Below, in pieces: positions 726-13,118 of a stretch of DNA of 26,136 nucleotides. The stretch is from a virus. Position 1 is the stretch's first letter. Each line of letters starts with the position of its first letter. The stretch spans positions 1-26,136 of IMG/VR virus record IMGVR_UViG_3300024348_000210; one strand, written 5' to 3'. The notes beneath the pieces were generated by a model that saw only the letters and a program-made list of their open reading frames with translations, did no database searches and was not told the origin of the DNA. The translations under genes and the position numbers were made by a program.

Positions 726-1082
726 TTACCTCGTTACTGATGGATTAACAGTAATTTTACCTTCTAAAATACGTTCAATCATTGTAACGCCGGCGCTGTC
801 CTGATACGACAATTCAACGTCATATACGTAACGACCACGGCTGGAAAGACTATCTGTCTGTGTATTGGATAAAGAAATAACTACAATACCGCTAGTAGGC
901 GGTGCTGCAATTATTGAAGTGAAATCTAACGTGTCGGCACTGTCGCTACTATAGTTGCGTTTTAATTTAGCCGCAACTGAATGTCCTGTTAGATTTTTTA
1001 CTGAACCATCGACGTTAACTAGCTCTATTTCTAAAGCAATATCAGCGCCTTGGTCAATCTTAAAATCTTCATATGTTGCCAT
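726..1082 (-). CDS. Small beta-rich virion structural protein (118 aa)
   Basis: ATG at 1082 begins MATYEDFKIDQGADIALEIEL, followed by DGSVKNLTGHSVAAKLKRNY and a C-terminal segment GRYVYDVELSY...RILEGKITVNPSVTR. The 'D(Q)G(A/S)D...LTG..V.A.(I/L)(K/R)...G.Y.YD(V/I).....v..GkI.V.P.VT' arrangement matches a small, all-beta structural family common near fibre genes in marine T4-like phages and reminiscent of baseplate-adaptor N-terminal domains. No membrane or signal segment is visible. The gene has its own T4-type late promoter and an unusual inverted repeat that covers its ribosome-binding site (see 1082-1160). It leads the block continuing into the 91-aa and fibre-like genes. Biochemical role unknown. 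Confidence 0.7.
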   Translation of the reverse strand: MATYEDFKIDQGADIALEIELVNVDGSVKNLTGHSVAAKLKRNYSSDSADTLDFTSIIAAPPTSGIVVISLSNTQTDSLSSRGRYVYDVELSYQDSAGVTMIERILEGKITVNPSVTR

Positions 1083-1170: not shown

Positions 1171-1878
1171 TTATTCTGCAGAGGAAATATCCGCAATTAC
1201 CATCTCACGAAATTCTTCTGAAGCCTGCGCAGTACTAAATGTATATGATACAGTGCATCTCCAGTTATCAGTTTCTGCTGCATGATATAACAATTTGTCT
1301 TGTTCGCCATAATGGCCAAAATAAGCTGCTTTACATGTCCATGCGCCGGCAGCATCTTCACATATAATTTCTTCTTTAGTAACCGGGTGAATGTATTTGA
1401 AACAACCTTCACCAAATTCAGACCACGTGAAAATCAAATTAAAAGCTGCAGCATTAGCATTGTTATGCCAAGAAATAAAACCGCCTGGAGGATAAATTGC
1501 ACATAAAGCATTATTTCGAACCGATAAAAAATTCATCATTTTATCGTTAAGAGTCGCCAGATGCATAGTGAAATCACGCTTGAACACAGGATCAGCATCT
1601 GGTTCAAATATCTGGTGATGTCTTTCGCCGAGCTTCAAGTTATAACCTACTAACTGCTCTGGGAAACCATCGTGTTTAGTTCCCATCAAAAGAATTTCTT
1701 CTTTATGTTTATCACCGGCATAGTACTTACGCTGTCTAGCGTGTTCTTTGGCGCTACAGTGGACATTCTCAGCAAATCCTTGCCACGTATGCAATTTGGC
1801 ATACTCGTTAAGAATCTCTAATAATTCTGGATTATTAATAGGAACGTGTTTTAAATATTCGTCGTTAAGCTGTGTCAT
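1171..1878 (-). CDS. 2-oxoglutarate/Fe(II) oxygenase-like protein (235 aa)
   Basis: The C-terminal half looks like a double-stranded beta-helix dioxygenase. CAIYPPGGFISWHNNANAAA has the first candidate metal ligand at H138. FNLIFTWSEFGEGCFKYI follows, and LLYHAAETDNWRCTVSYTF supplies the second histidine H199 and the 2-oxoglutarate-type arginine R207. The middle ligand of the usual HxD/E triad appears as Asn (H138-N139-N140), so metal binding may be altered; related phage proteins with a 'WHxN' pattern are, from memory, not unusual. The N-terminal 100 residues are helical and unassigned. Its ATG overlaps the stop of the glycosyltransferase gene by 4 nt (ATGA), implying translational coupling. 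Likely role, inferred: hydroxylation of a protein or small molecule in the infected cell. Alternative: a cupin-like protein without oxygenase activity. Confidence 0.6.
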   Translation of the reverse strand: MTQLNDEYLKHVPINNPELLEILNEYAKLHTWQGFAENVHCSAKEHARQRKYYAGDKHKEEILLMGTKHDGFPEQLVGYNLKLGERHHQIFEPDADPVFKRDFTMHLATLNDKMMNFLSVRNNALCAIYPPGGFISWHNNANAAAFNLIFTWSEFGEGCFKYIHPVTKEEIICEDAAGAWTCKAAYFGHYGEQDKLLYHAAETDNWRCTVSYTFSTAQASEEFREMVIADISSAE

Positions 1879-2600
1879 ACGATTGGTTTATCCTTATTTA
1901 GGCCAGCAGAGAAGTGTCTAATGATAACTTCACCTTCTGGTCGGGTTCTCGCCCAATTTAGTGCGTTATAGTAATTCCATCTTAGATCGTCATCAAAAAT
2001 TCCGATCTTAAGATCTTTATACTTAGGTTCTTTTTCAGTTAACCACCATAATGAGAATTGGTCCCACGACTTAAGGCTATCAGCATAACCTTTTGGCCAC
2101 CATTCACCGTCCATTTGACGTCTGGTTAAATCCCACCAATCAGCCATAAATTCACGGATAATTGGTTTTCGCATATCATATAAACAAACTGCCCCACACA
2201 ATCTAAACTTGGCAGGACCTTCTGGGGTGCTAAAATCTCGTTCAGCGTAAATATAACTACGCTCATCGGTTAATTCAGACCATACCATATCATGATCTTT
2301 AAGTTCATCCCAGACCTTTCTAATATCTTCGTGCTCAACTTCCATATCAGCATCGATATACATTGCGATGTCATAAGGTACTTTTGCCATACCAAAAAGT
2401 TTTGCGCGATAATGATCATCACAAAAAATAACATCATCAGCAATCTCTTCGCGACCGTCTAGAAACCTTTCTTCAGTTACCAAACAAATCTTGGCATCTT
2501 CATAGTAATCTCTAATAGATTCGCATAGATTAATTGCATACAAATAAAAATTATGATTTTTGGAGGCAACAACCACAAAACCTTTAGTAGGCTCACTCAT
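1875..2600 (-). CDS. GT8-like glycosyltransferase (241 aa)
   Basis: The protein has GT-A-fold hallmarks in order: an N-terminal strand GFVVVASKNHNFYLYAINLC (residues 7-26) as in nucleotide-sugar-binding folds, the metal-binding DxD motif in MYIDADMEVEH (D83, D85), an acceptor-side segment LCGAVCLYD (about 134-142), WDQFSLWWL (179-187), and a terminal RHFSAGLNKDKPI (H229, K236/K238) resembling the HxxGxxKPW of retaining GT8 enzymes. The length is about that of a single catalytic domain, with no membrane anchor or signal peptide, so it is cytoplasmic. It overlaps the upstream 158-aa gene by 8 nt and the downstream oxygenase-like gene by 4 nt. Substrate unknown. The location beside Ser/Thr/Tyr/Asn-rich giant fibres makes glycosylation of virion proteins plausible but unproven; nucleotide-sugar use for host surface or DNA is an alternative. 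Confidence 0.75.
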   Translation of the reverse strand: MSEPTKGFVVVASKNHNFYLYAINLCESIRDYYEDAKICLVTEERFLDGREEIADDVIFCDDHYRAKLFGMAKVPYDIAMYIDADMEVEHEDIRKVWDELKDHDMVWSELTDERSYIYAERDFSTPEGPAKFRLCGAVCLYDMRKPIIREFMADWWDLTRRQMDGEWWPKGYADSLKSWDQFSLWWLTEKEPKYKDLKIGIFDDDLRWNYYNALNWARTRPEGEVIIRHFSAGLNKDKPIV

Positions 2601-3069
2601 CAGTAGATTCTACCTTTTCAGCTTCAGCAATAGCCATAGCATCTTGTAAAATCATGATAGACCACATATCAACTTCGATTCTGGACTTAGCACGACGCAA
2701 TTTTGCTTTAAGAGCACGGTTTTTAGAATTTTTAATTTCATCAACTTCAAAAGCTTCAAGCTTGTAGTTGAAAAGTTTTTCTAATTTTCGTGCTTTTTGA
2801 TGCTCCAAATCACGTTGGGCTTCTTCTTCCTTTTGTGCTGCTTTACGTACAACTCGATCTGTTGTTTCTTTATCGATAGTTTCTTCGCCAAGCGCATTAA
2901 CTACTTCTTCAAAGTCCGGATTCGGTTTACCTTCTTTATCGTGGCGTTTAAGTAGCATTACCTGTCTGGTAGTTCTACCTACGTCATCTTCAATTTCCAA
3001 GATACAATTTAATTGATCTTTGGCTTCAGTTTCCCAAAACGCATTATTCATCCATCGCTTATAACTCAT
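2593..3069 (-). CDS. Charged coiled-coil protein of unknown function (158 aa)
   Basis: ATG at 3069 has a clear GGAG about 10 nt upstream. The N-terminal 65 residues (YKRWMNNAFWETEAKDQLNC, LEIEDDVGRTTRQVMLLKRH, then NPDFEEVVN) look beta-rich. Residues 70-140 are highly charged and helical (KEEEAQRDLEHQKARKLEKL, then KNRALKAKLRRAKSRIEVD), probably coiled coil. I associate this kind of protein with hypothetical proteins near structural genes in marine T4-like phages but cannot assign a role; a chaperone or assembly factor for the adjacent fibres is a guess from position. It is the first gene of a three-gene cassette with overlapping stops and starts, downstream of a hairpin terminator. No exact late promoter precedes it, only a weak TATAAAAC variant, so its timing may differ from its neighbours. 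Confidence 0.75.
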   Translation of the reverse strand: MSYKRWMNNAFWETEAKDQLNCILEIEDDVGRTTRQVMLLKRHDKEGKPNPDFEEVVNALGEETIDKETTDRVVRKAAQKEEEAQRDLEHQKARKLEKLFNYKLEAFEVDEIKNSKNRALKAKLRRAKSRIEVDMWSIMILQDAMAIAEAEKVESTDE

Positions 3070-3170: not shown

Positions 3171-6100
3171 TTATGCCAATCGCACATATAACGTATAAGT
3201 TTCAACAGGCGTTGATGATGATTGAATAGTAAGACCAGTATAGTTACCGATAAAACTACGTGAGTAGTTACCGATAAAGGTCCTAGAATAATCACCAGCA
3301 AAGTCTCTACTATAATTACCGGCAAAATCGCCAGCAAAAGTAATAGAACTATTTCTTGTTGATACTGAAGTATATGAACTAGTTCTTACTCTAGTATAAC
3401 TTGACTGTCGTGTTCTAGTGAAAACATTTGTAGAATTTCTAGTATACGTACCAGCAAAGCCTCTAGTATATACGCCGGTATAAACGGCACTGTAAGTAGA
3501 AGTTCTTGTTCTAGCATACGTACCAGCAAAATCCCGTGAATAGTTACCAATAAAGTCACGTGAATAGTTGCCTATATAGTTACCAGTATAGGTTGATACT
3601 CTTTCACGTACATAGTTACCTTCGAATGAACGAGTGTAGTTACCTATATATGTGTTGTTAAACGTGGTAGTATACGCACCAGCATATTCACCAGCAAAGT
3701 TACGAGTATAGTTACCGATAAAGGTAGTAGCAAAGTCTCTGGCATAGTTACCTATAAAGTCACGGGTATAGTTACCAGTGAAAGTAGTATTATACGTACC
3801 AGTGTATTCACCAGCAAAGTCACGAGTATACGTACCAGTGTATTCACCAGCAAAGTCACGTGCATAGTTACCTGCATATTCACCAGCAAATGTTCTTGAA
3901 TAATTACCTATGTAGTTACCTATAAAGCTGCGAGCATAGTTACCAACATATTCACCAGCAAAGCTGCGAGCATAGTTACCAACATATTCACCAGCAAAGT
4001 TACGTGCATAGTTGCCTGCGTATTCACCAGCAAAGGCACGGGCATAGTTACCTGCGTACTCACCAATAAAGTTTCTAGTATACGTACCAGCATATTCACC
4101 AATAAAGTTTCTAGTATACGTACCAGCATATTCACCGATAAAGTCACGAGTATACGTACCAGCATATTCACCGATAAAGTCACGGGCATAGTTACCTGCG
4201 TACTCACCAATAAAGTTTCTAGTATACGTACCAGCATATTCACCGATAAAGTCACGAGTATAGTTGCCTACGTAGTTACCAATAAAGGTATTAGCATAGT
4301 CGCCAACATAGTTACCAGTAAAGTTGCGAGCATATTCGCCAGCAAAGTTACGGCTATAGTTACCGATAAAGTCACCAGCAAAGTTAGTTAACTGATCTCT
4401 TGCATAAGCACTAGTACGGGTACGGGCATATGTTGAATAACGGACTCGAGAATAAGCAGAGGCACGAGTTCTAGTACTAGTACGTGTATATAAACCAGTA
4501 TAGTTACCTACGTAATCGCCAGCAAAGCCTCTTGTATAGTCACCTACGAAGTTACCAGCATAATCACGGGCATAGTTGCCTACGAAGTTACCTGCATAGT
4601 CAGTAATACGAGTACGAGCATAGTTGCCTACGAAGTCACCAACGTAATCACCAACGTAGTTGCCTACGAAGTTGCCGACGTAATCAGTAATACGAGTGCG
4701 CGAATATTGACCAATAAAGTTTCGGGCATAAAATCCAGCGTATTCGCCTACAAAATCACCAATGTAATCAGTAACACGAGTGCGACCATAGTTACCTACG
4801 AAGTCACCGACATAGTTGCCTACGTAGTTACCTACGAAGTCGCCGACATAGTTGGTAACTCGAGTTCTAGCATAGTAACCAACGTATTCACCGACGTATG
4901 CCGTATTTCCAGCATAAGCAGATGTGCGTGTATAGTCAGTAATACGAGTTCTAGCATAAGCACCAGCAAAATTACCAGTAAAGGTTAGGTTGCGTGCATA
5001 ATAGAATGTAGAACCACGCGTACGCGTATAGTTACTTGTTGTAGCATAAGCAGTTACACGATCTCTTGTGTAATCTAATGTGGCAGCTCTGTTTCTAGTA
5101 TAATAGAGCGTGCCAGCTACGGCTCTAGTATAATCAACTAATACCCCGCGGGCTCTAGTGTAATATACAGTGGTACCCTGATATACAGTACGGGTATAAT
5201 CAGAAACTGTAGTAGATACACGGCTATAGTTACCTAGGAACGGAGTTGGTTCACCAGCAATAACTCTAGAATATAACTTAGAGAACGTCAGGGTTGTTGC
5301 GGCAGATCTGGTATAGTTACCGGTATATGGCCCGCCGATTTCTATTCTAGAATAGTCACCGACATAATAGATTGTATTTGTATAGTTACCGGTATATGTT
5401 ACTGCGGCAGCATAATCACCAGTATATGTTACTGCGGTGGTATAGTTACCTACGAAGTTACCAGCATAATACAAAGTTCTAGTATAATCACCGACATAGT
5501 TAACAGCAGTAGCATAAGCAGAAGTACGGGTAGAATCAGTTACTCTTGTTCTGCCGTAGTTACCTACGTAGTCGCCAGTATAAGTTAAGTTGCGAGCATA
5601 ATAGAATGTAGAATTACGAGTTCTAGAATATGTACCAGCATAGTTACCTACGAAGTCACCAGTATAAGTCGTAATACGCGTACGGGTGTAATCAGCGGCA
5701 TAGTCGGTTACGCGAGTTCGTGCATAAGTACCAGCATAGTTACCAGTAAAGGTTGCTATGATGGTGCGAGAATAAACACCAGTATAAGCACTAGCACGTA
5801 CACGTGTATATGTACCACCATAGTTACCGGTAAAGGTTTGTAGACGGTCTCTGGTATAATCAGCGGCATAGTTGGTAATACGAGTACGAGCATACGTACC
5901 ACCATAGTTGCCGGTATATGTTACTACGTTATCGCGAGTATACGTATTGGCAAAGTTGGTGACACGATCTCTTACATATGCAGAGTATCTAGTTCTAGTA
6001 GAAGTCGTTATTGTCGTACGAGCATAGTTACCTACGAAATCACCAGCAAAAGTACGGGCATAATCACCAGTAAATGCGCGGGCATAATCGCCGGCGAAGT

Positions 6101-8063
6101 TACGGGAATAGTTGCCAATAAAGTTACCGGTAAAATCAGTTACTCTATTACGAGCATATGCAGAAACTCGAGTTCTAGCAAAGAATCCGGTGTAATCAGT
6201 TATACGAGTACGAGCAAATGTAGACGGTCTTGTTCTGGTATAATCGGCAGCATAAGCACTAGTGCGGGTACGTGAATAGTTACCAGCGTAAGAAGAAACT
6301 CGAGTTCTAGAATAAACGCCAGCATAAGCACTAGTGCGGGTACGTGAATATGTACCAGCATAAGAACTAGTTCGGGTACGTGCATAGTTACCAGCATAAG
6401 AACTAGTGCGGGTACGTGCATAGTTACCTGCATAAGCACTAGAACGGGTACGTGCATAGTTACCTGCATAAGCACTAGAGCGGGCACGTGTATATGTGCC
6501 AGCATAAGCACTAGAACGGGTACGTGAATATGTGCCAGCATAAGCACTAGAGCGGTCACGCGTATATGTGCCAGCATATGAAGAAGCTCTAGTCCTAGTA
6601 TAAGCTGCAGCATATGCACTAGAACGGTTACGTGCATAGTTACCTGCGTAGGCAGAATTACGAGTTCTAGAATATGTACCAGCATAAGAACTAGTGCGGG
6701 TACGTGCATATGTACCAACATAAGAAGAAACTCTACCGCGAGTATAATCACCTACTCTTGTGCGAGAGAATGTACCAGTAAATGTAGAAGCACGGTTAAC
6801 CGTGTATACTGATGCTCTAGCTCTAGAATAGTAGCCAGTAAAGTTGCCAATATAAGCTGCAGCAATTGTGCGCGTATATGTTTCAGTACGCGTGATTACA
6901 TATTCGCCAGTAAATGATCTAGAGTACACGCCGGTATAATCAGCAGAATATGCAGATGGTCTTGTTCTGCTAAACTGATTAGTATAAGCACCAGTATATT
7001 CGCCAGCAAAGTCGCGAGTATAATTGCCAGTAAACGGTGTTGTATATGTACTTGTTCTTACACGTGAGTATTCACCTACGAAATCACCAGTATAGTTACC
7101 AGCAAAATCACGTGAATAGTTACCAGCAAAGTCTCTTGTGTAATTACCAGTATAGTCACCAGCAAAGTTTACAGTAGAGATGCGAGTTGATACACGTGTA
7201 TAAGTTGAAGCTCGTGTACGAGTGAATACAGAAACCCTAGGATTGATATAAGCCGACGCTCTAGTTCGGGTATATGCAATTAGGCTTGTATCTTTTTTAG
7301 TATTTAACGCAGTACCGACAGCTTTCCAAGTACCTGCAGCAGTCGGTGCACCTTGAGCGGATGAACGTAATTGATATGAACCAAGTTCGCCAGCTGAGGC
7401 GCGCAACGATTTTACACGTTGACCAAGTGTATATTGAATTTCGGCATCCGTCATTTCGGCTAGACTGGCAGAAGCACCAGTTTTTCTAGTCATTGGACGC
7501 GTTGCAGCAGGAGCTGTAGACATGGAGGTTCGGAGATACACATGATATGGAACGGCCGTACCATCACCTTGTGTATCGGAGAATATGCTGTTAATGAATA
7601 CGCTGTAATCAACGCCAGGACTTGTCGCAGCAAGTTTGAAAGTACCCGGGTAGTCTAAGTCGACTAGGACGTTAATGACACGTTTAGCTAAAGCATCTAG
7701 GTCTGCATCTACCATTTCGTAGAAGCCAGGGTTCAATGAATCGCTATAATATCCGATAGGACGCTTAAAGTTCGCTCCGGACTCATCGGCAGAACCAGCA
7801 GTTTGATAAACTGTAGTTGTCGTTGAACCTGAAGTGATCTGACTGGCAGGATGCGTACCGGTCGTTTGGTTGAAGAATGTATCAACAAACGAACCGACAG
7901 CAGTGTTGCCAGTAGAGGTTAATGTAAGCGACCCCACGTCAGATGCTAGTACACCTGATAAATGTTGACCTACGCTCCATGCCAAGTAATTTTCTTCACT
8001 TGGCTGAAACTCATGTAGATCTCCACCGGATAGGAGTTTTAGTGGAATACTCGATTTTGACAC
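3171..8063 (-). CDS. Giant tetrapeptide-repeat fibre-like protein (1630 aa)
   Basis: The start is GTG at 8063, preceded by GAG 7 nt upstream and a late promoter 37 nt upstream. Residues 1-263 form a non-repetitive head, clearly homologous to the head of the neighbouring 1050-aa protein (shared GNTxxGSFVD, GTHPA, YQxAGxADES, SSAQGAP, GTWKAVG). Residues about 264-1605 are a shaft of tetrapeptides (Y/F)-x-(G/R)-x, often paired as YxRxRxSx, with aromatics 4 or 8 residues apart. Residues about 850-1010 are irregular (10-residue units) around an island shared with the paralogue. The last 22 residues (TGLTIQSSSTPVETYTLYVR then LA) are a conserved cap. The shaft has almost no Lys and no Cys, His, Met or Trp that I could find. 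Likely role, inferred: an extended virion fibre or adhesin at the baseplate periphery. No known fold recognised. Confidence 0.85.
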   Translation of the reverse strand: MSKSSIPLKLLSGGDLHEFQPSEENYLAWSVGQHLSGVLASDVGSLTLTSTGNTAVGSFVDTFFNQTTGTHPASQITSGSTTTTVYQTAGSADESGANFKRPIGYYSDSLNPGFYEMVDADLDALAKRVINVLVDLDYPGTFKLAATSPGVDYSVFINSIFSDTQGDGTAVPYHVYLRTSMSTAPAATRPMTRKTGASASLAEMTDAEIQYTLGQRVKSLRASAGELGSYQLRSSAQGAPTAAGTWKAVGTALNTKKDTSLIAYTRTRASAYINPRVSVFTRTRASTYTRVSTRISTVNFAGDYTGNYTRDFAGNYSRDFAGNYTGDFVGEYSRVRTSTYTTPFTGNYTRDFAGEYTGAYTNQFSRTRPSAYSADYTGVYSRSFTGEYVITRTETYTRTIAAAYIGNFTGYYSRARASVYTVNRASTFTGTFSRTRVGDYTRGRVSSYVGTYARTRTSSYAGTYSRTRNSAYAGNYARNRSSAYAAAYTRTRASSYAGTYTRDRSSAYAGTYSRTRSSAYAGTYTRARSSAYAGNYARTRSSAYAGNYARTRTSSYAGNYARTRTSSYAGTYSRTRTSAYAGVYSRTRVSSYAGNYSRTRTSAYAADYTRTRPSTFARTRITDYTGFFARTRVSAYARNRVTDFTGNFIGNYSRNFAGDYARAFTGDYARTFAGDFVGNYARTTITTSTRTRYSAYVRDRVTNFANTYTRDNVVTYTGNYGGTYARTRITNYAADYTRDRLQTFTGNYGGTYTRVRASAYTGVYSRTIIATFTGNYAGTYARTRVTDYAADYTRTRITTYTGDFVGNYAGTYSRTRNSTFYYARNLTYTGDYVGNYGRTRVTDSTRTSAYATAVNYVGDYTRTLYYAGNFVGNYTTAVTYTGDYAAAVTYTGNYTNTIYYVGDYSRIEIGGPYTGNYTRSAATTLTFSKLYSRVIAGEPTPFLGNYSRVSTTVSDYTRTVYQGTTVYYTRARGVLVDYTRAVAGTLYYTRNRAATLDYTRDRVTAYATTSNYTRTRGSTFYYARNLTFTGNFAGAYARTRITDYTRTSAYAGNTAYVGEYVGYYARTRVTNYVGDFVGNYVGNYVGDFVGNYGRTRVTDYIGDFVGEYAGFYARNFIGQYSRTRITDYVGNFVGNYVGDYVGDFVGNYARTRITDYAGNFVGNYARDYAGNFVGDYTRGFAGDYVGNYTGLYTRTSTRTRASAYSRVRYSTYARTRTSAYARDQLTNFAGDFIGNYSRNFAGEYARNFTGNYVGDYANTFIGNYVGNYTRDFIGEYAGTYTRNFIGEYAGNYARDFIGEYAGTYTRDFIGEYAGTYTRNFIGEYAGTYTRNFIGEYAGNYARAFAGEYAGNYARNFAGEYVGNYARSFAGEYVGNYARSFIGNYIGNYSRTFAGEYAGNYARDFAGEYTGTYTRDFAGEYTGTYNTTFTGNYTRDFIGNYARDFATTFIGNYTRNFAGEYAGAYTTTFNNTYIGNYTRSFEGNYVRERVSTYTGNYIGNYSRDFIGNYSRDFAGTYARTRTSTYSAVYTGVYTRGFAGTYTRNSTNVFTRTRQSSYTRVRTSSYTSVSTRNSSITFAGDFAGNYSRDFAGDYSRTFIGNYSRSFIGNYTGLTIQSSSTPVETYTLYVRLA
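3792..4259 (-). repeat. Thirteen 36-bp tandem units in the 1630-aa gene
   Basis: The region is exactly 13 x 36 bp in frame, encoding 12-residue units such as TRDFIGEYAGTY, with variants at fixed positions. Adjacent copies are sometimes identical (for example the pair beginning at 3924 and 3960), while others differ mainly at third codon positions, pointing to a mix of recent and old duplication. Confidence 0.9.
5225..5294 (-). repeat. 70-bp dispersed repeat, copy in the 1630-aa gene
   Basis: This matches 9275-9344 in the paralogous gene at 69 of 70 bases (mismatch at 5281/9331). It encodes KLYSRVIAGEPTPFLGNY within the irregular mid-shaft section (residues about 923-946). The surrounding DNA of the two genes is much less similar, so recent gene conversion or strong selection is implied. 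Confidence 0.9.
6240..6743 (-). repeat. Fourteen 36-bp tandem units in the 1630-aa gene
   Basis: The region is exactly 14 x 36 bp in frame, encoding 12-residue units such as ARTRTSSYAGNY, which is an 8-residue RTR element plus a 4-residue YAGx element. Variation is confined to a few positions (A/S/T before R; T/S/A/N before SxY; N/T/V/D/A after YAG). Confidence 0.9.
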
Positions 8064-8099
8064 TGTTAATCTCGCTCTTAGTAGTTAATCGTGTACTAC

Positions 8100-8107
8100 T
8101 ATTTATA
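8100..8107 (-). promoter_or_regulatory. T4-type late promoter (TATAAATA) for the 1630-aa gene
   Basis: The minus strand reads TATAAATAGT, 37 nt upstream of the GTG start at 8063. The TAA stop of the upstream 1050-aa gene (8105-8103) lies inside the element. A 7-bp inverted repeat (8079-8085 with 8095-8101) touches the promoter's edge. Confidence 0.8.
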
Positions 8108-11100
8108 CAAGTTTAACATACAACGTATATGTTTCCACTGCCTCATTTGAAGATTGAATTGTTAGACCTGTATAGTTACCTATAAAGCCTCTAGAATAGT
8201 CACCAATAAAGCCTCGAGTATAATTACCTACGAAGTCACCAGCATAGGTAGATACTCTATTTAGTATGCTGTTACGAGTATATACTGAAGATCTTGTTCT
8301 GCTATATGTGCTTTCTCTGCCTCGAGAATACGTAGATATTCTAGTTCTAGAATAGTCACCGGCAAATGCTCGACTATAATTACCTATGAAATCGCCAGCA
8401 AAATCAATCACGTTATCGCGGGCAAATGTAGATACTCTATTTCTAGTGTATTCTTCGACCCTGGTAGTTGCGTAAGCACTATTTCTTACTCTAGTATATA
8501 CGCCAGTATATTCACCTACGAAATCACCAGTATAATTTGTGATACGTGTACGAGTAAATTCTCCAACATAATCAGTTATGCGAGTTCGAGCATATGCACT
8601 AATTCTAGTTCTTTCAGAAGTTCTGGTACTTACGCGTACATAGTTACCAACATAATCACCAATATAACTACTGGTCCTTATTCGAGCATATGCACTAACT
8701 CTAGTTCTAGTGTATTCACCAGCAAAGTCACGAGTATAGTTACCAACATAATCACCAATATAACTACTGGTCCTTGTTCGAACAAAGGTAGATGGTCGTG
8801 TTCTAGTGTATTCACCAGCAAAGTTGCGAGCATAGTTGCCGACGTAATCGCCGATATAACTACTAATCCGTGTTCGAAGAAACGTAGACGGTCTTGTTCT
8901 AGCGTAGTTGCCGATAAAGTCACGAGTATAATCACCAGCAAAAGTACGAGCATATGATGAGTTTCGTGTACGAGCATATGTTGATATGCGATTTCTTACA
9001 AAGTTTCTGGCGTACTCACCAATAAAGGTTCTAGAAAAGTTACCAGTAAATAGTCGAGCATAAAAGCTAACATATGTTGATGAACGGTCTCTAGTATATG
9101 TTGACACTCTACTAGAAGTTCGAACATATGATGAAACTCTGGTAAAGTTGCCGGTGAATGTTAAATTACGTGTATAGTTACCGGCATAATTAAGCGTTCT
9201 AGTATAAAATCCTGCAAAGGTTAATGTACTAGGAACTAGTCTAGCATAATCATCAACGATGATCGATATACGGGTATAGTTACCTAGGAACGGAGTTGGT
9301 TCACCAGCAATAACTCTAGAATATAACTTATAGAACGTCAGGGTACTTGGTCTGTTTCTAGTAAAGTTAGCAAGGAAAGATGAGACTCTGGTGTAATTTC
9401 CTTCAAACCCAACCGTTGAAGCGCGGACACGAGTATATGTAGAGGCGCGAGTAAAGCCCGTAGTAAAGTCAAGTACTCGAGTATAATTACCAGTAAAAAA
9501 TAAAGTTCGGGAATAGTTACCGGTAAATAGTCGAGTAAAATTCGGGCTGACATATGTACTACTTCGATCTGTAGCATATGCTGAGGCACGATCTCTTACA
9601 AAGTTTCTGGCGAACTCACCAATAAAGGTTCTAGAAAAGTCACCGGCAAATGCTCTAGAATACGTCGATTCTCTAAGGCGAGAATATGACGATGCCCGTG
9701 TACGGGTATACAGGCCACCAAATGTTCTTGCATAAAAACCGTCAAAACCTGTAGTATAATCAGTTATACGAGTTCTGGCATATGACGATATCCGAGTACG
9801 GCTATAGTTGCCGGCGTAGTTACGTGCGTAGTTACCGCCAAAATCTCTAGTATAATCAGTTATACGAGTTCTGGCATATGCAGAATTACGAATGCGACTA
9901 TAGTTACCGGCAAAGTTACGCGTGTAGTTACCGGTAAAATCTCTAGTATAATCAGTTATGCGGGTACGAATATATTCTCCCACAAAGTTACCGGCAAAGT
10001 TGCCAGCAAAACCACGAGAATAATTGCCTACATAGTTACCAGTAAAGTTACGGCTATAGTTACCTACATAGTCGCCGGTAAAAACTATTTGAGTATTTCT
10101 AGAATAAACTCCAGAATAATTTCCAGTAAAGTCCCTAGTAAAATTACCAGTATACTGTCTAGTATAATTGCCGGCGTAACTTCTAGCATATTCGCCGATA
10201 AAGTTACCAGCAAAGTTGGTTATTCTATTTCTTGAATATGTTGAGTTTCTTAGACGATTATAGGTGCCAAAAAATCCACGGGTATATTCACCGCCAAAAG
10301 TTCTAGAATAGTCACCGGCAAAGTCCCGAGTATAGTTACCAATATAATCGCCGACAAAAGTACGAGCAAAGTCAATTACTACGTTTCGGGTATAAGTAGA
10401 AGCTCTAGATCTAGTATACGTAGATATTCTATTTCGTGTATAGTCTTGATCTGCTACTTGTTTCCGTGTATTAATTGCGCTACCCACGGCTTTCCAAGTA
10501 CCTCCGACCGGAGCACCTTGAGCAGATGAACGTATTACATATGAGCCAGGAGAACCGGCAATTGCCCGTCGAGTCTTAGCTCTTTGTGCTAAAGAATGTA
10601 CCAATTGCGCATTAGTAAATTCTTGCACTCCTTTGTATATACTGGCATCTCTACGGATTTTCATCAACGTAGATGCTGCTAGATTGCTATCAAGTATTCC
10701 TGTAGGGGCAACTGATGTAGTCTTTCGATATATGTTATATACGGTCTGTACGCCAGATGTTGTAGTATCATTAAATGCGCCGGCAATATATACTGACCAG
10801 TTTGCACTAGGTGCAGTTGAACCTAAATAGAAAGCACCGCCATAATCATTATCGGCAAGTTTACTATTAACGCGATCCATCATAGTATTAAATGATGCAT
10901 CAGACATTTCATAAATGCCTTCAGTAGGATCGTTATCTTTATAACCTACAGGCTTGTGGAAAAGAGGACTAGATTCATCAGCAATACCAGCAACTTGGTA
11001 TAAAGTAGTAGTAGTTTCACTAGAAGTGATAGATGTCGCCGGATGAGTTCCTACTGGTTGATTATAAAAGAAATCAACGAATGAACCGATTGGGGTATTT

Positions 11101-11255
11101 CCGCTAGAAGATAGAGTAATATTACCAATATCATTATTTGCAGATACTGCTAATTCCTCGCCAACTAAGTAAGCAAGGAAAGTTTCTTCTGCAGAGTTTA
11201 AGCGCTTTAGGTCACCGTCGTCGGTGAATCTTTTTAGTGCCTTATCAAGTGACAT
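8103..11255 (-). CDS. Giant tetrapeptide-repeat fibre-like protein (1050 aa), paralogue
   Basis: ATG at 11255 has AGGA 7 nt upstream. Residues 1-270 align without large gaps to the head of the 1630-aa protein (TLxSxGNT, IGSFVDxF, NQxxGTHPA, TTTTxYQxAG, ADES, RSSAQGAP, TWKAVG). Residues about 272-1025 are the same (Y/F)-x-(G/R)-x shaft, here with two sets of three 32-residue units. The end TGLTIQSSNEAVETYTLYVK, then LV, matches the paralogue's cap. Lys is nearly absent from the shaft although Arg is abundant. Fixed head and cap with variable shaft length suggest a fibre whose length or binding surface evolves by repeat gain and loss. It lies between the 613-aa fibre-like gene and its longer copy. 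Virion location is inferred from context. No exact late promoter sits in the 21-nt gap upstream; the nearest is inside the previous gene at 11423. Confidence 0.85.
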   Translation of the reverse strand: MSLDKALKRFTDDGDLKRLNSAEETFLAYLVGEELAVSANNDIGNITLSSSGNTPIGSFVDFFYNQPVGTHPATSITSSETTTTLYQVAGIADESSPLFHKPVGYKDNDPTEGIYEMSDASFNTMMDRVNSKLADNDYGGAFYLGSTAPSANWSVYIAGAFNDTTTSGVQTVYNIYRKTTSVAPTGILDSNLAASTLMKIRRDASIYKGVQEFTNAQLVHSLAQRAKTRRAIAGSPGSYVIRSSAQGAPVGGTWKAVGSAINTRKQVADQDYTRNRISTYTRSRASTYTRNVVIDFARTFVGDYIGNYTRDFAGDYSRTFGGEYTRGFFGTYNRLRNSTYSRNRITNFAGNFIGEYARSYAGNYTRQYTGNFTRDFTGNYSGVYSRNTQIVFTGDYVGNYSRNFTGNYVGNYSRGFAGNFAGNFVGEYIRTRITDYTRDFTGNYTRNFAGNYSRIRNSAYARTRITDYTRDFGGNYARNYAGNYSRTRISSYARTRITDYTTGFDGFYARTFGGLYTRTRASSYSRLRESTYSRAFAGDFSRTFIGEFARNFVRDRASAYATDRSSTYVSPNFTRLFTGNYSRTLFFTGNYTRVLDFTTGFTRASTYTRVRASTVGFEGNYTRVSSFLANFTRNRPSTLTFYKLYSRVIAGEPTPFLGNYTRISIIVDDYARLVPSTLTFAGFYTRTLNYAGNYTRNLTFTGNFTRVSSYVRTSSRVSTYTRDRSSTYVSFYARLFTGNFSRTFIGEYARNFVRNRISTYARTRNSSYARTFAGDYTRDFIGNYARTRPSTFLRTRISSYIGDYVGNYARNFAGEYTRTRPSTFVRTRTSSYIGDYVGNYTRDFAGEYTRTRVSAYARIRTSSYIGDYVGNYVRVSTRTSERTRISAYARTRITDYVGEFTRTRITNYTGDFVGEYTGVYTRVRNSAYATTRVEEYTRNRVSTFARDNVIDFAGDFIGNYSRAFAGDYSRTRISTYSRGRESTYSRTRSSVYTRNSILNRVSTYAGDFVGNYTRGFIGDYSRGFIGNYTGLTIQSSNEAVETYTLYVKLV
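8640..8903 (-). repeat. 96-bp tandem units (2.75 copies) in the 1050-aa gene
   Basis: In-frame 32-residue units each join two 8-residue RTR elements to IGDYVGNY and, in the first two, xRxFAGEY. The third copy is cut after IGDYVGNY. The period was checked on TAACTACTGG at 8665 and 8761. Confidence 0.85.
9275..9344 (-). repeat. 70-bp dispersed repeat, copy in the 1050-aa gene
   Basis: This is the partner of 5225-5294 (one mismatch in 70). It encodes KLYSRVIAGEPTPFLGNY at residues about 637-660, roughly mid-shaft as in the paralogue. Confidence 0.9.
9684..9971 (-). repeat. Three 96-bp tandem units in the 1050-aa gene
   Basis: These are three in-frame 32-residue units, each starting xRTRITDY and ending with an 8-residue xRxRxSxY element. 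The third is the most diverged (TTGFDGFY in place of TRDFxGNY). They differ in sequence from the 32-residue units at 8640-8903 but have the same length. Confidence 0.85.
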
Positions 11256-11276: not shown

Positions 11277-13118
11277 TTAATTTAACAGTACACCATTTTC
11301 ATCATATACCCGAATCCATTTTCCGGCTAAATGATTCAATGCAGCAATAATACTATTAGTTGCTCCGGCACTATCAAAATAAGCTGACAGATCAGATCTA
11401 TGTCCAATGATATTATCTTTAATATTTATAAGATCACTTGAGGCTGAATCTAATTGTGTATGAAGTTCATTAATAGCAGGTACAACAGTAGTTGCAGTAG
11501 TACCCATGTTGCCAGCAGTAACATTGCCAAGATCTGTCATTAACTCATTGAGAGCGTCCATGACAGTTACTGAACCAAAATTAGCGTGGAATGCTTGCGT
11601 TGGTTCTACCCGAGTATTCAGGGTATCAACTTCATTTTCAACTTCATTAATTGCTGCAACAACATTAGTTGCAGTAGTACCCATGTTGGCAGCAGTAACA
11701 TCACCTAGGTCAGTTCTTAATTCTCTGATTGCAGCTGAAATATTAGTAGCAGCTAGACCAGTAAACGTCATGTTACCAATATCAGTCTCATGCTCATTGA
11801 TTGCAGCAGAAAGATTAGTAGCAGTAGTAGTTAAGGTTGTACCAACACCAGTTTTAGTATTAAGAGTATCAATTTCGGTTTCAAGCTCTAGCATTGCACC
11901 GACTACAGTACTAGCAGTAGTACCCATATTGACAGCAGTAACGTCACCGATGTCCGTCATCAATTCGTTAATGCCGTCCATAATAGTATTTGATGTAAAG
12001 TTACTATGGAAGGCTTGAGTAGGTTCAACCCGAGTATTCAAAGTATCAATTTCGGTTTCAAGCTCTAGCACTGCGCCGGTCAGATTTGTTGCAGCAGTAC
12101 CCATATTGCTAGCAGTAACATCACCAATATCAGTTCTTAATTCACGAATAGCGGCTGAGATATTAGTGGCAGTCAAGCCAGTAAATGTCATGTTACCGAT
12201 ATCAGTCTCATGCTCGTTAATAGCACCTACTACGTATTTCGCCGTAGTATTAAGAGAAGTTAGAGAACCGGCAGTAACAAGATCGGCATTTAGTGCATTC
12301 ACAGCAGTAGTAAGATTTGTTCCTAAACCACTAGCTAGAACCATAGTACCAATATTAGTCTCATGTTCATTGAGAGAACCAATAATTGTTTGCGCAGTAG
12401 TATTCAGCGTATCCCAAACACCGCTGTCTGATCCAATCTTTTCATTAGTTAATACTAAACGTATTTTAGTAATTTCTAACTCAGAAGAAGCCGAATCTAA
12501 TTCAGCATGAACTTCGTTAATTGCGCCTACTGCTATTTTAGATGTTGTATCTAAAGTGGTAACTTGACCTAGTTCGTCAACAATCTCTTCGATTGCACCT
12601 TTAAAATGTTTAGAAGTTAAACCATCAAACGAACCAGTAGTAGAAGTATATAAATCAGTTTCGTGTTCATTGACTGCAGCAATCAAATTACCTGCGCCAG
12701 TAGTTAGCGTGTAATTAGTTAAATTGCCACGTACTGCCGACTCTAATTCATTAATAGCAGCAACTGCGCTAGTTTTATTAGTTGTTCCTAATGCAGTATG
12801 ATCGCCTAATTCAGTTCTAAGTTCTTCTATGCCATCATAAAAGTTAATAGCACTTAAGCCAGTAAAGCTAATACCCGAATCATATAATTCGGTATAAAAT
12901 TCATTAACCGCATCTCTAAGATTATCTGCAGTTGTCCAAAGGTCGTAATTGGTCGCACTTCCACGAACAACGGTTTCTAATTCATTCACTGCCGAAACAA
13001 TATCAACTTTAACCGTAGTATCTAATACCGATGGGTCACCTACGTTAGTTGAAATTTCATTGATTTTATCTTTTAAAATCTTGAATGAATCTGTTATTTC
13101 TACAATTGGCTTTGCCAT
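11277..13118 (-). CDS. Repetitive helical fibre-like structural protein (613 aa)
   Basis: ATG at 13118 directly follows the TAA of the 79-aa gene. The protein consists of short units of the form T-(T/S)-A-x-x-(V/L)-x-x-A-(I/V)-N-E-(H/L)-E-T-(D/E)-I, linked by turns such as GNMTFTGL and GDVTAxNMGT. The units look like helices joined by loops, as in trimeric coiled-coil or whisker-like phage fibres. A 140-residue block is duplicated in tandem. The C-terminus (KWIRVYDENGVLLN) is a small non-repetitive cap. No Cys was noted, and there is no signal or membrane segment. Its position between the large baseplate/fibre protein and the giant shafts suggests a fibre or connector at the baseplate rim. 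Specific homologue not identified. Confidence 0.8.
   Translation of the reverse strand: MAKPIVEITDSFKILKDKINEISTNVGDPSVLDTTVKVDIVSAVNELETVVRGSATNYDLWTTADNLRDAVNEFYTELYDSGISFTGLSAINFYDGIEELRTELGDHTALGTTNKTSAVAAINELESAVRGNLTNYTLTTGAGNLIAAVNEHETDLYTSTTGSFDGLTSKHFKGAIEEIVDELGQVTTLDTTSKIAVGAINEVHAELDSASSELEITKIRLVLTNEKIGSDSGVWDTLNTTAQTIIGSLNEHETNIGTMVLASGLGTNLTTAVNALNADLVTAGSLTSLNTTAKYVVGAINEHETDIGNMTFTGLTATNISAAIRELRTDIGDVTASNMGTAATNLTGAVLELETEIDTLNTRVEPTQAFHSNFTSNTIMDGINELMTDIGDVTAVNMGTTASTVVGAMLELETEIDTLNTKTGVGTTLTTTATNLSAAINEHETDIGNMTFTGLAATNISAAIRELRTDLGDVTAANMGTTATNVVAAINEVENEVDTLNTRVEPTQAFHANFGSVTVMDALNELMTDLGNVTAGNMGTTATTVVPAINELHTQLDSASSDLINIKDNIIGHRSDLSAYFDSAGATNSIIAALNHLAGKWIRVYDENGVLLN
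11423..11430 (-). promoter_or_regulatory. Probable late promoter (TATAAATA) inside the 613-aa gene
   Basis: An exact TATAAATA on the minus strand lies 168 nt upstream of the 1050-aa gene, which has no element in its short upstream gap. It lacks the GT extension of the intergenic sites. It may drive the 1050-aa gene or occur by chance in AT-rich coding DNA. Confidence 0.5.
11470..12192 (-). repeat. 420-bp tandem duplication in the 613-aa gene
   Basis: Segments around 11671-11810 and 12091-12230 align at an offset of exactly 420 bp, and TLNTRVEPTQAFH occurs once per copy. One full copy is about 11773-12192 and the second, shortened at its C-terminal side, is about 11470-11772. Within each copy there are further 25-45-residue subrepeats. 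Confidence 0.8.

Follow-up and report, generated by a model that had tools for sequence, protein, structure and literature searches.

The 26,136-nucleotide stretch analysed here (the window; IMG/VR virus record IMGVR_UViG_3300024348_000210) is a 26-kb virus record of a T4-like phage, and it raises the question of what structure is encoded by two adjacent giant genes, A and B, whose long shafts repeat a four-residue unit. The main genes of the window all lie on the minus strand, in the order gp25, gp6, wedge, gp9/10-N, gp8, a 2009-aa DUF4815 protein, a 613-aa fibre protein, B and A. They are followed on the same strand by a 158-aa protein, a GT-A-like glycosyltransferase, a 235-aa protein and a 118-aa protein. 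Our reading, to which we assign a probability of about 0.88, is that A and B are giant antiparallel beta-hairpin fibres with a variable tip and a residue-pairing code. Their parts are as follows.

3171-8063, minus strand: ORF A, 1630 aa.
7275-8063, minus strand: N-terminal head domain of A, residues 1-263, from the alignment with the heads of B and of phage C48C1; the homologous B head has an AF2 pLDDT of ~90.
5559-7274, minus strand: outgoing arm of A, residues 264-835, in a strict 4-residue register (aromatic autocorrelation, covariation, arm/apex periodicity).
5031-5558, minus strand: apex region of A, residues 836-1011, non-periodic, at the mirror centre and hypervariable among relatives.
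5238-5264, minus strand: apex motif VIAGEPTPF of A, residues 934-942, with the covariation centre at residue 936.
3240-5030, minus strand: return arm of A, residues 1012-1608 (aromatic autocorrelation, covariation, periodicity).
3171-3239, minus strand: C-terminal strand of A (..VETYTLYVRLA), conserved in the family and predicted to join the head.
8103-11255, minus strand: ORF B, 1050 aa.
10443-11255, minus strand: N-terminal head domain of B, residues 1-271 (AF2 pLDDT ~90).
9555-10442, minus strand: outgoing arm of B, residues 272-567 (aromatic autocorrelation, covariation, periodicity).
9099-9554, minus strand: apex region of B, residues 568-719, non-periodic (dip in identity among relatives, periodicity, covariation).
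9288-9314, minus strand: apex motif VIAGEPTPF of B, residues 648-656, with the covariation centre at residue 650.
8172-9098, minus strand: return arm of B, residues 720-1028 (aromatic autocorrelation, covariation, periodicity).
8103-8171, minus strand: C-terminal strand of B, residues 1029-1050, predicted to be folded into the head (AF2 pLDDT 85-95 for 1031-1050; strand 1012-1049).

The shafts are defined by their aromatic residues. With 292 Tyr and Phe residues in A and 169 in B, the aromatic autocorrelation exceeded that of shuffled sequences at every multiple of 4 (z of 20-24 in A and 12-16 in B, where lags 4-8 gave about 14-16) and was negative at nearly every other lag. Spacings between aromatics are multiples of 4 in 84% of cases in A, 82% in B and 80% across 57 non-redundant relatives. 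Plain parity of the spacings was rejected as a description, as multiples of 4 dominate. The repeat unit is (Y/F)-(T/A/V/S/I)-(G/R/S)-(N/T/D), with Y/F (80%) or R at position 1. Residue identity at odd lags is 0.03-0.04, far under the composition baseline of 0.096, indicating that successive residues point strictly to opposite faces, the pattern of a beta-strand. Arm indels mostly come in lengths divisible by 4 but not by 8 or 12. The repeat is therefore four residues long, and 12 is a local super-pattern only. This period is distinct from those of pentapeptide (5), hexapeptide LbH (6) and RTX (9) repeats, and none of the Pfam repeat models matched A or B. The regular part of each protein forms two arms, separated by a non-periodic stretch (A 836-1011, B 568-719). 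An earlier note on this DNA had described aromatics recurring every 4 or 8 residues, an extended strand with the aromatic and G/R on one face, and A and B as paralogues. The autocorrelation and the strict two-face alternation bear out the first two points, and the heads of A and B, at 46% identity, identify the proteins as paralogues.

The relationship between the two arms emerges from length differences among close relatives, in which shaft insertions occur in equal-length pairs mirrored about the middle of the protein, with nesting up to four deep. Compared with the window, a contig of the same species (L003, 97-98% identical) lacks 60 aa at residue 524 and 60 aa at residue 1282 of A, as well as 32 aa at residue 458 and 32 aa at residue 798 of B; in both proteins the gaps are placed symmetrically about the middle. 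Between L058 and L060, the out arm differs by +124, -44, -28 and +80 residues and the return arm by +80, -28, -44 and +124, at mirrored distances. Among 14 groups of close relatives, 25 distinct changes in arm length were counted, and 13 of them had exactly the same size on the two arms, compared with a mean of 0.94 and a maximum of 6 over 20,000 rounds of shuffling. The indels of L165 are centred ~115 aa off the simple midpoint, which predicts ~230 extra residues in the return arm, and an inserted domain of ~219 aa is present there. The paired blocks of A are unlike in sequence (YAGNYARTRSSA-type versus FIGEYAGTYTRN-type) and its gene contains no inverted repeats of at least 20 nt; structural constraint is therefore the best explanation of the paired indels. 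One-sided changes were found between L039 and L034 (24 aa; 99.9% identical), L079 and L081 (58 aa) and L146 and L147 (12 aa), and the one-sided difference between L149 and L151 is an ORF truncation. The 24-aa block of L039, near residue ~1438, occurs in the return arm only and may be either a recent change still lacking its counterpart or an error in the assembly of repeats.

Covariation between the arms provides a signal that is independent of the indels. Out-arm tokens were counted from the first Tyr, and return-arm tokens were counted back from the last aromatic unit. In a single antiparallel register, facing tokens share a mutual information of 0.36 against a null of 0.046 (z ~50), compared with 0.05-0.09 off register. 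The parallel orientation was flat (maximum 0.048), and a parallel arrangement of the arms was rejected on this basis. With log-odds taken from the other proteins, all 31 testable proteins chose the same register among 51 in a leave-one-out analysis; the 0/1 difference in register reflects the choice of end anchor, namely whether the last YxGx unit is counted. Refinement of the register raised the mutual information to 0.74/0.72. The pair statistics share ancestry, but so do the wrong registers and the parallel orientation, which are nevertheless flat.

The facing residues of the two legs follow a pairing code: Tyr pairs with Tyr, Phe with Arg, Arg with Gly or Ser, and Gly with Thr. Position 1 faces position 1, where Y:Y occurs at 1.66x, F:R at 3.1x and R:F at 2.9x expectation, with 0 cases of R:R. 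Position 3 faces position 3, where R:G (1.7x), R:S (2.3x) and G:T (2.6x) are enriched and R:R (0.10x), S:G (0.03x) and G:S (0.12x) are depleted. In B, residue i lies opposite 1300-i, and the ladder starts with Y272:Y1028, R274:G1026, R276:F1024, S278:R1022 and Y280:Y1020 and continues with R282:G1018, R284:F1016, S286:R1014 and Y288:Y1012. In A, residue i lies opposite 1872-i. Although the arms of A and B differ about two-fold in length, the covariation centre is the same Ala of the shared VIAGEPTPF motif in both paralogues (A936 and B650). By computation, the mirror-image indels and the antiparallel covariation thus describe a chain that runs out and back. Here the fold proposed in the earlier note held in part: the extended strand with its aromatic and G/R face stood, while the one-way course of the shaft did not. 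The covariation is compatible with pairing inside one chain or between chains, since in a homotrimer an out arm might find its partner in the return arm of a neighbouring chain.

The turn of the chain is hypervariable. Close relatives, compared in pairs, mostly share 0.8-0.9 of their residues over the arms, and 0.50-0.52 at the centre. The GEPTP apex motif is present only in the window and L003 and was rejected as a family-wide landmark. For B, AF2 predicted a confident head (residues 1-270) and placed the C-terminal residues in it, with strands 253-288 and 1012-1049 at residue sums of 1300-1302, matching the covariation register; the arms were given no confident structure (pLDDT ~20-35). In this model, the needle of B would be inserted in a terminal collar built from both chain ends. 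Together, the mirrored indels, the single antiparallel register, the pairing rules, the hypervariable centre and the predicted position of the C-terminus in the head argue for a giant hairpin.

As long tail fibres of a T4-like marine phage, or as fibres attached to its baseplate, A and B would carry the head domain at the virion end, from which the chain would run out as one extended beta-strand of 4-residue units and turn at the non-repetitive, hypervariable apex. The return leg would run antiparallel to the outgoing leg, and the final strand would complete the head. The legs keep one fixed register through the pairing code on the aromatic face, and length changes, with few exceptions, through the addition or removal of equal blocks of four-residue units at facing leg positions. 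At 0.29-0.33 nm per residue, such fibres would measure ~195-220 nm for A and ~110-125 nm for B. The apex most likely carries the receptor-binding site, and three hairpins would probably bundle as a six-stranded needle, by analogy with other phage fibres.

An antiparallel homodimer would produce identical mirrored indels and covariation. In it, two chains would lie head to tail and each out arm would pair with its partner's return arm, leaving a head at either end of the fibre and the apex halfway along. We consider this arrangement unlikely, because the midpoint is non-periodic and hypervariable, as expected of an exposed tip, the midpoint of the phage C48C1 homologue is close to a non-periodic domain, and AF2 puts the C-terminus in its own head, although a swap is possible.

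Slightly less probable again is that A and B are secreted or cell-surface phage proteins that lie in the tail cluster by chance. Such a role would fit their lack of a match to any known fibre family, but they always lie between baseplate genes and a fibre-assembly homologue, in an order conserved across distinct loci, and their variable tip and inserted non-periodic domains also argue against it. In the window, A and B are flanked by the gp25, gp6, gp8 and DUF4815 baseplate genes on one side and by the fibre-assembly homologue on the other, which places them in a fibre and baseplate cluster with assembly genes, as is typical of tail fibres. The neighbouring 613-aa fibre protein (11277-13118, minus strand) has long internal repeats (..TDIGDVTA..NELETEIDTLN..), weak coiled-coil-like Pfam matches and a PHROG tail fibre match, and is shorter by 140 aa in L003.

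A three-sided beta-solenoid with 12 residues per turn, which the earlier note had offered as an alternative, is very improbable and was rejected. A local 12-residue super-pattern in A (the period of the 60-aa indels) and a weak peak at a token lag of 3 are in its favour, but arm indels of 32, 28, 44, 80, 124 and 176 residues are multiples of 4 and not of 12, and a solenoid predicts neither the mirror pairing of distant arms nor a single antiparallel register. That the mirrored indels are an artefact of DNA inverted repeats or repeat assembly can be practically dismissed: repetitive DNA is prone to misassembly, and a few one-sided 24-aa differences may have this origin, but inverted repeats, of which the A gene has none of at least 20 nt, were rejected as the cause of the symmetry, the paired blocks differ, and the covariation does not depend on indels.

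The hairpin family is found almost exclusively in marine viral metagenomes, in keeping with the earlier note. An alignment of the head found 104 viral-contig stretches and one of the 158-aa protein found 140; 76 distinct heads were tabulated, and the relatives come from ~75 distinct marine viral loci. In a collection of 50,697 phage records, phage C48C1 (OQ984149), classed in the Kyanoviridae, was alone in carrying the heads or the downstream proteins and is the closest named record. Its hypothetical protein WJE88074.1 is a true homologue that shares the head, shaft, C-terminal strand and downstream cassette with the window; it differs in being a single 3347-aa protein with inserted non-periodic domains, mostly in the return arm. 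These inserted stretches (L001, 13980-24023) measure ~120-250 aa, and those in the return arm had no match in Pfam. A ~75-aa stretch of this protein is repeated near residues 2005-2155, which may be an assembly error. A search of GTDB genome contigs found no relative and hence no host.

Two short members (L074 9989-11302 and L076 3148-4491; 437 and 447 aa) keep the head, C-terminal strand, cassette and downstream gene order. Their shafts of only ~170 residues depart from the (Y/F)x(G/R)x pattern, and arrays of an NYAGPT hexapeptide and an NYLGEASGAV decapeptide replace the tetrapeptide shaft. In the second shaft proteins of L066, L161, L160 and L044, the heads are enlarged by ~400 aa ahead of the shaft.

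Database searches agree with the suggestion of the earlier note that the fold lies outside described repeat folds, within the libraries searched. Searching A and/or B against Pfam, PHROG, NCBIfam and the sequences of PDB returned nothing meaningful; the head of A had no match in Pfam, PHROG or PDB, and B had none in PDB by sequence. PHROG 22557 and 20647, families of unknown function, gave weak matches to short stretches of A/B only. Foldseek with the B model found no match at E<=0.001 in PDB and BFVD, a search that the disordered arms may dilute.

A useful comparison is the receptor-binding needle of the T4 long tail fibre protein gp37 (PDB entry 2XGF). In gp37, domain D11 (882-1009) is inserted in D10 (811-881 and 1010-1026), so that the chain runs out to the tip and back; the stem is a six-stranded antiparallel needle that coordinates seven irons, G921 accommodates F970 of another subunit, and the tip binds OmpC and LPS (PMC6957217, PMC9659904). 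A and B, as known from sequence and AF2, resemble this plan in their out-and-back chain with a variable tip at the turn, and the G921-F970 contact is reminiscent of their complementarity of small and large residues. On the basis of this plan and complementarity, we propose for both A and B a needle-like fibre with the whole shaft as its stem. The differences are considerable: the legs of gp37 span ~50 residues compared with ~300-670 in A and B (about ten times longer), no tetrapeptide pairing code is known in T4, and in the family of A and B the HxH iron motif occurs 0 times in 57,219 shaft residues, of which His makes up 0.18%. Homology to gp37 or gp12 found no support in PDB sequence matches, Foldseek matches or Pfam/PHROG families covering the protein. 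A and B are best described as a variant form of the phage needle fibre that lies outside the gp37 family.

Other repeat arrays are more distant. The VTGN arrays in a structural protein of cyanophage S-RIM2 share hydrophobic-T-G-N four-residue units with A and B, but they are short and aliphatic and have neither the aromatic nor head homology. In S-RIM2 (L002, 7387-13125), these V/L-T-G-N arrays form two blocks near the C-terminus and are possibly another strand-pairing array. The triple-stranded beta-helix of T4 gp5/VgrG (VxGxxxxx), a trimeric spike, likewise has repeats of small residues and Gly, but its unit is 8 residues, its chain runs one way without mirrored arms, and it gave no match to protein B. 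The VTGN and gp5/VgrG-type arrays are weak compositional matches to each other.

The genes that follow A form a conserved cassette.

2593-3069, minus strand: 158-aa conserved partner, whose gene directly follows the shaft genes in every sufficiently long locus.
1875-2600, minus strand: GT-A-like glycosyltransferase, 241 aa, with an invariant DxD (D83/D85); the gene overlaps that of the 158-aa protein.
1171-1878, minus strand: 235-aa protein with a 2OG-Fe(II)-oxygenase fold (AF2 pLDDT 93, Foldseek, alignment).
726-1082, minus strand: 118-aa protein at the end of the cassette, related to the L-shaped tail fibre assembly family (PHROG 3304).

In every locus that extends more than ~170 bp beyond the last shaft gene, the 158-aa protein is followed by the glycosyltransferase and, sequence permitting, by the 235-aa and 118-aa proteins. 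The 158-aa partner, which had no Pfam match above cut-off, is proposed to be an assembly factor or chaperone. In the glycosyltransferase, D83/D85 are invariant in 27 sequences; Pfam Glycos_transf_2 matched at E=0.0046, below the curated cut-off, and PDB profile searches gave chance matches only. The model of the 235-aa protein had 91 Foldseek matches in PDB at E<=0.001, led by the prolyl-4-hydroxylase 4j25; the top matches (P4H, AlkB and PHD2) share its double-stranded beta-helix fold. Its H138, N140, H199 and R207 are invariant, with Asn140 replacing the usual acidic iron ligand (HxD/E...H). This H-x-N...H arrangement, seen in 30 relatives, may mark either an atypical iron site or a derivative without catalytic activity. 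The constant linkage of both genes to the fibre suggests that the two proteins hydroxylate and glycosylate the fibre or its partner, a tentative assignment whose chances we put a little short of even.

In the literature on tetrapeptide, tyrosine-rich or hairpin phage fibres, we found no description of a hairpin fibre architecture at the length of A and B. We consider it quite probable that these molecules are a protein analogue of a complementary duplex, with two beta-strands of hundreds of residues in a single chain, a near-deterministic complementarity (Y:Y, F:R, R:G, R:S, G:T) and length adjusted mainly through compensated four-residue blocks. They would then be the first hairpin fibre of giant size, equipped with a hypervariable tip and dedicated modification enzymes. 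For a giant, widespread phage family with no entry in Pfam, PHROG, NCBIfam or PDB, this yields a testable fold, register and tip position, and the indel-pairing test can be applied to further unannotated giant fibres. That a glycosyltransferase and a 2OG-oxygenase-fold protein are obligate neighbours suggests chemical modification of the fibre. Fibre length would be set by paired strands, whose pairing rules, readable from the sequence, come close to base pairing in their complementarity, which is rare among proteins.
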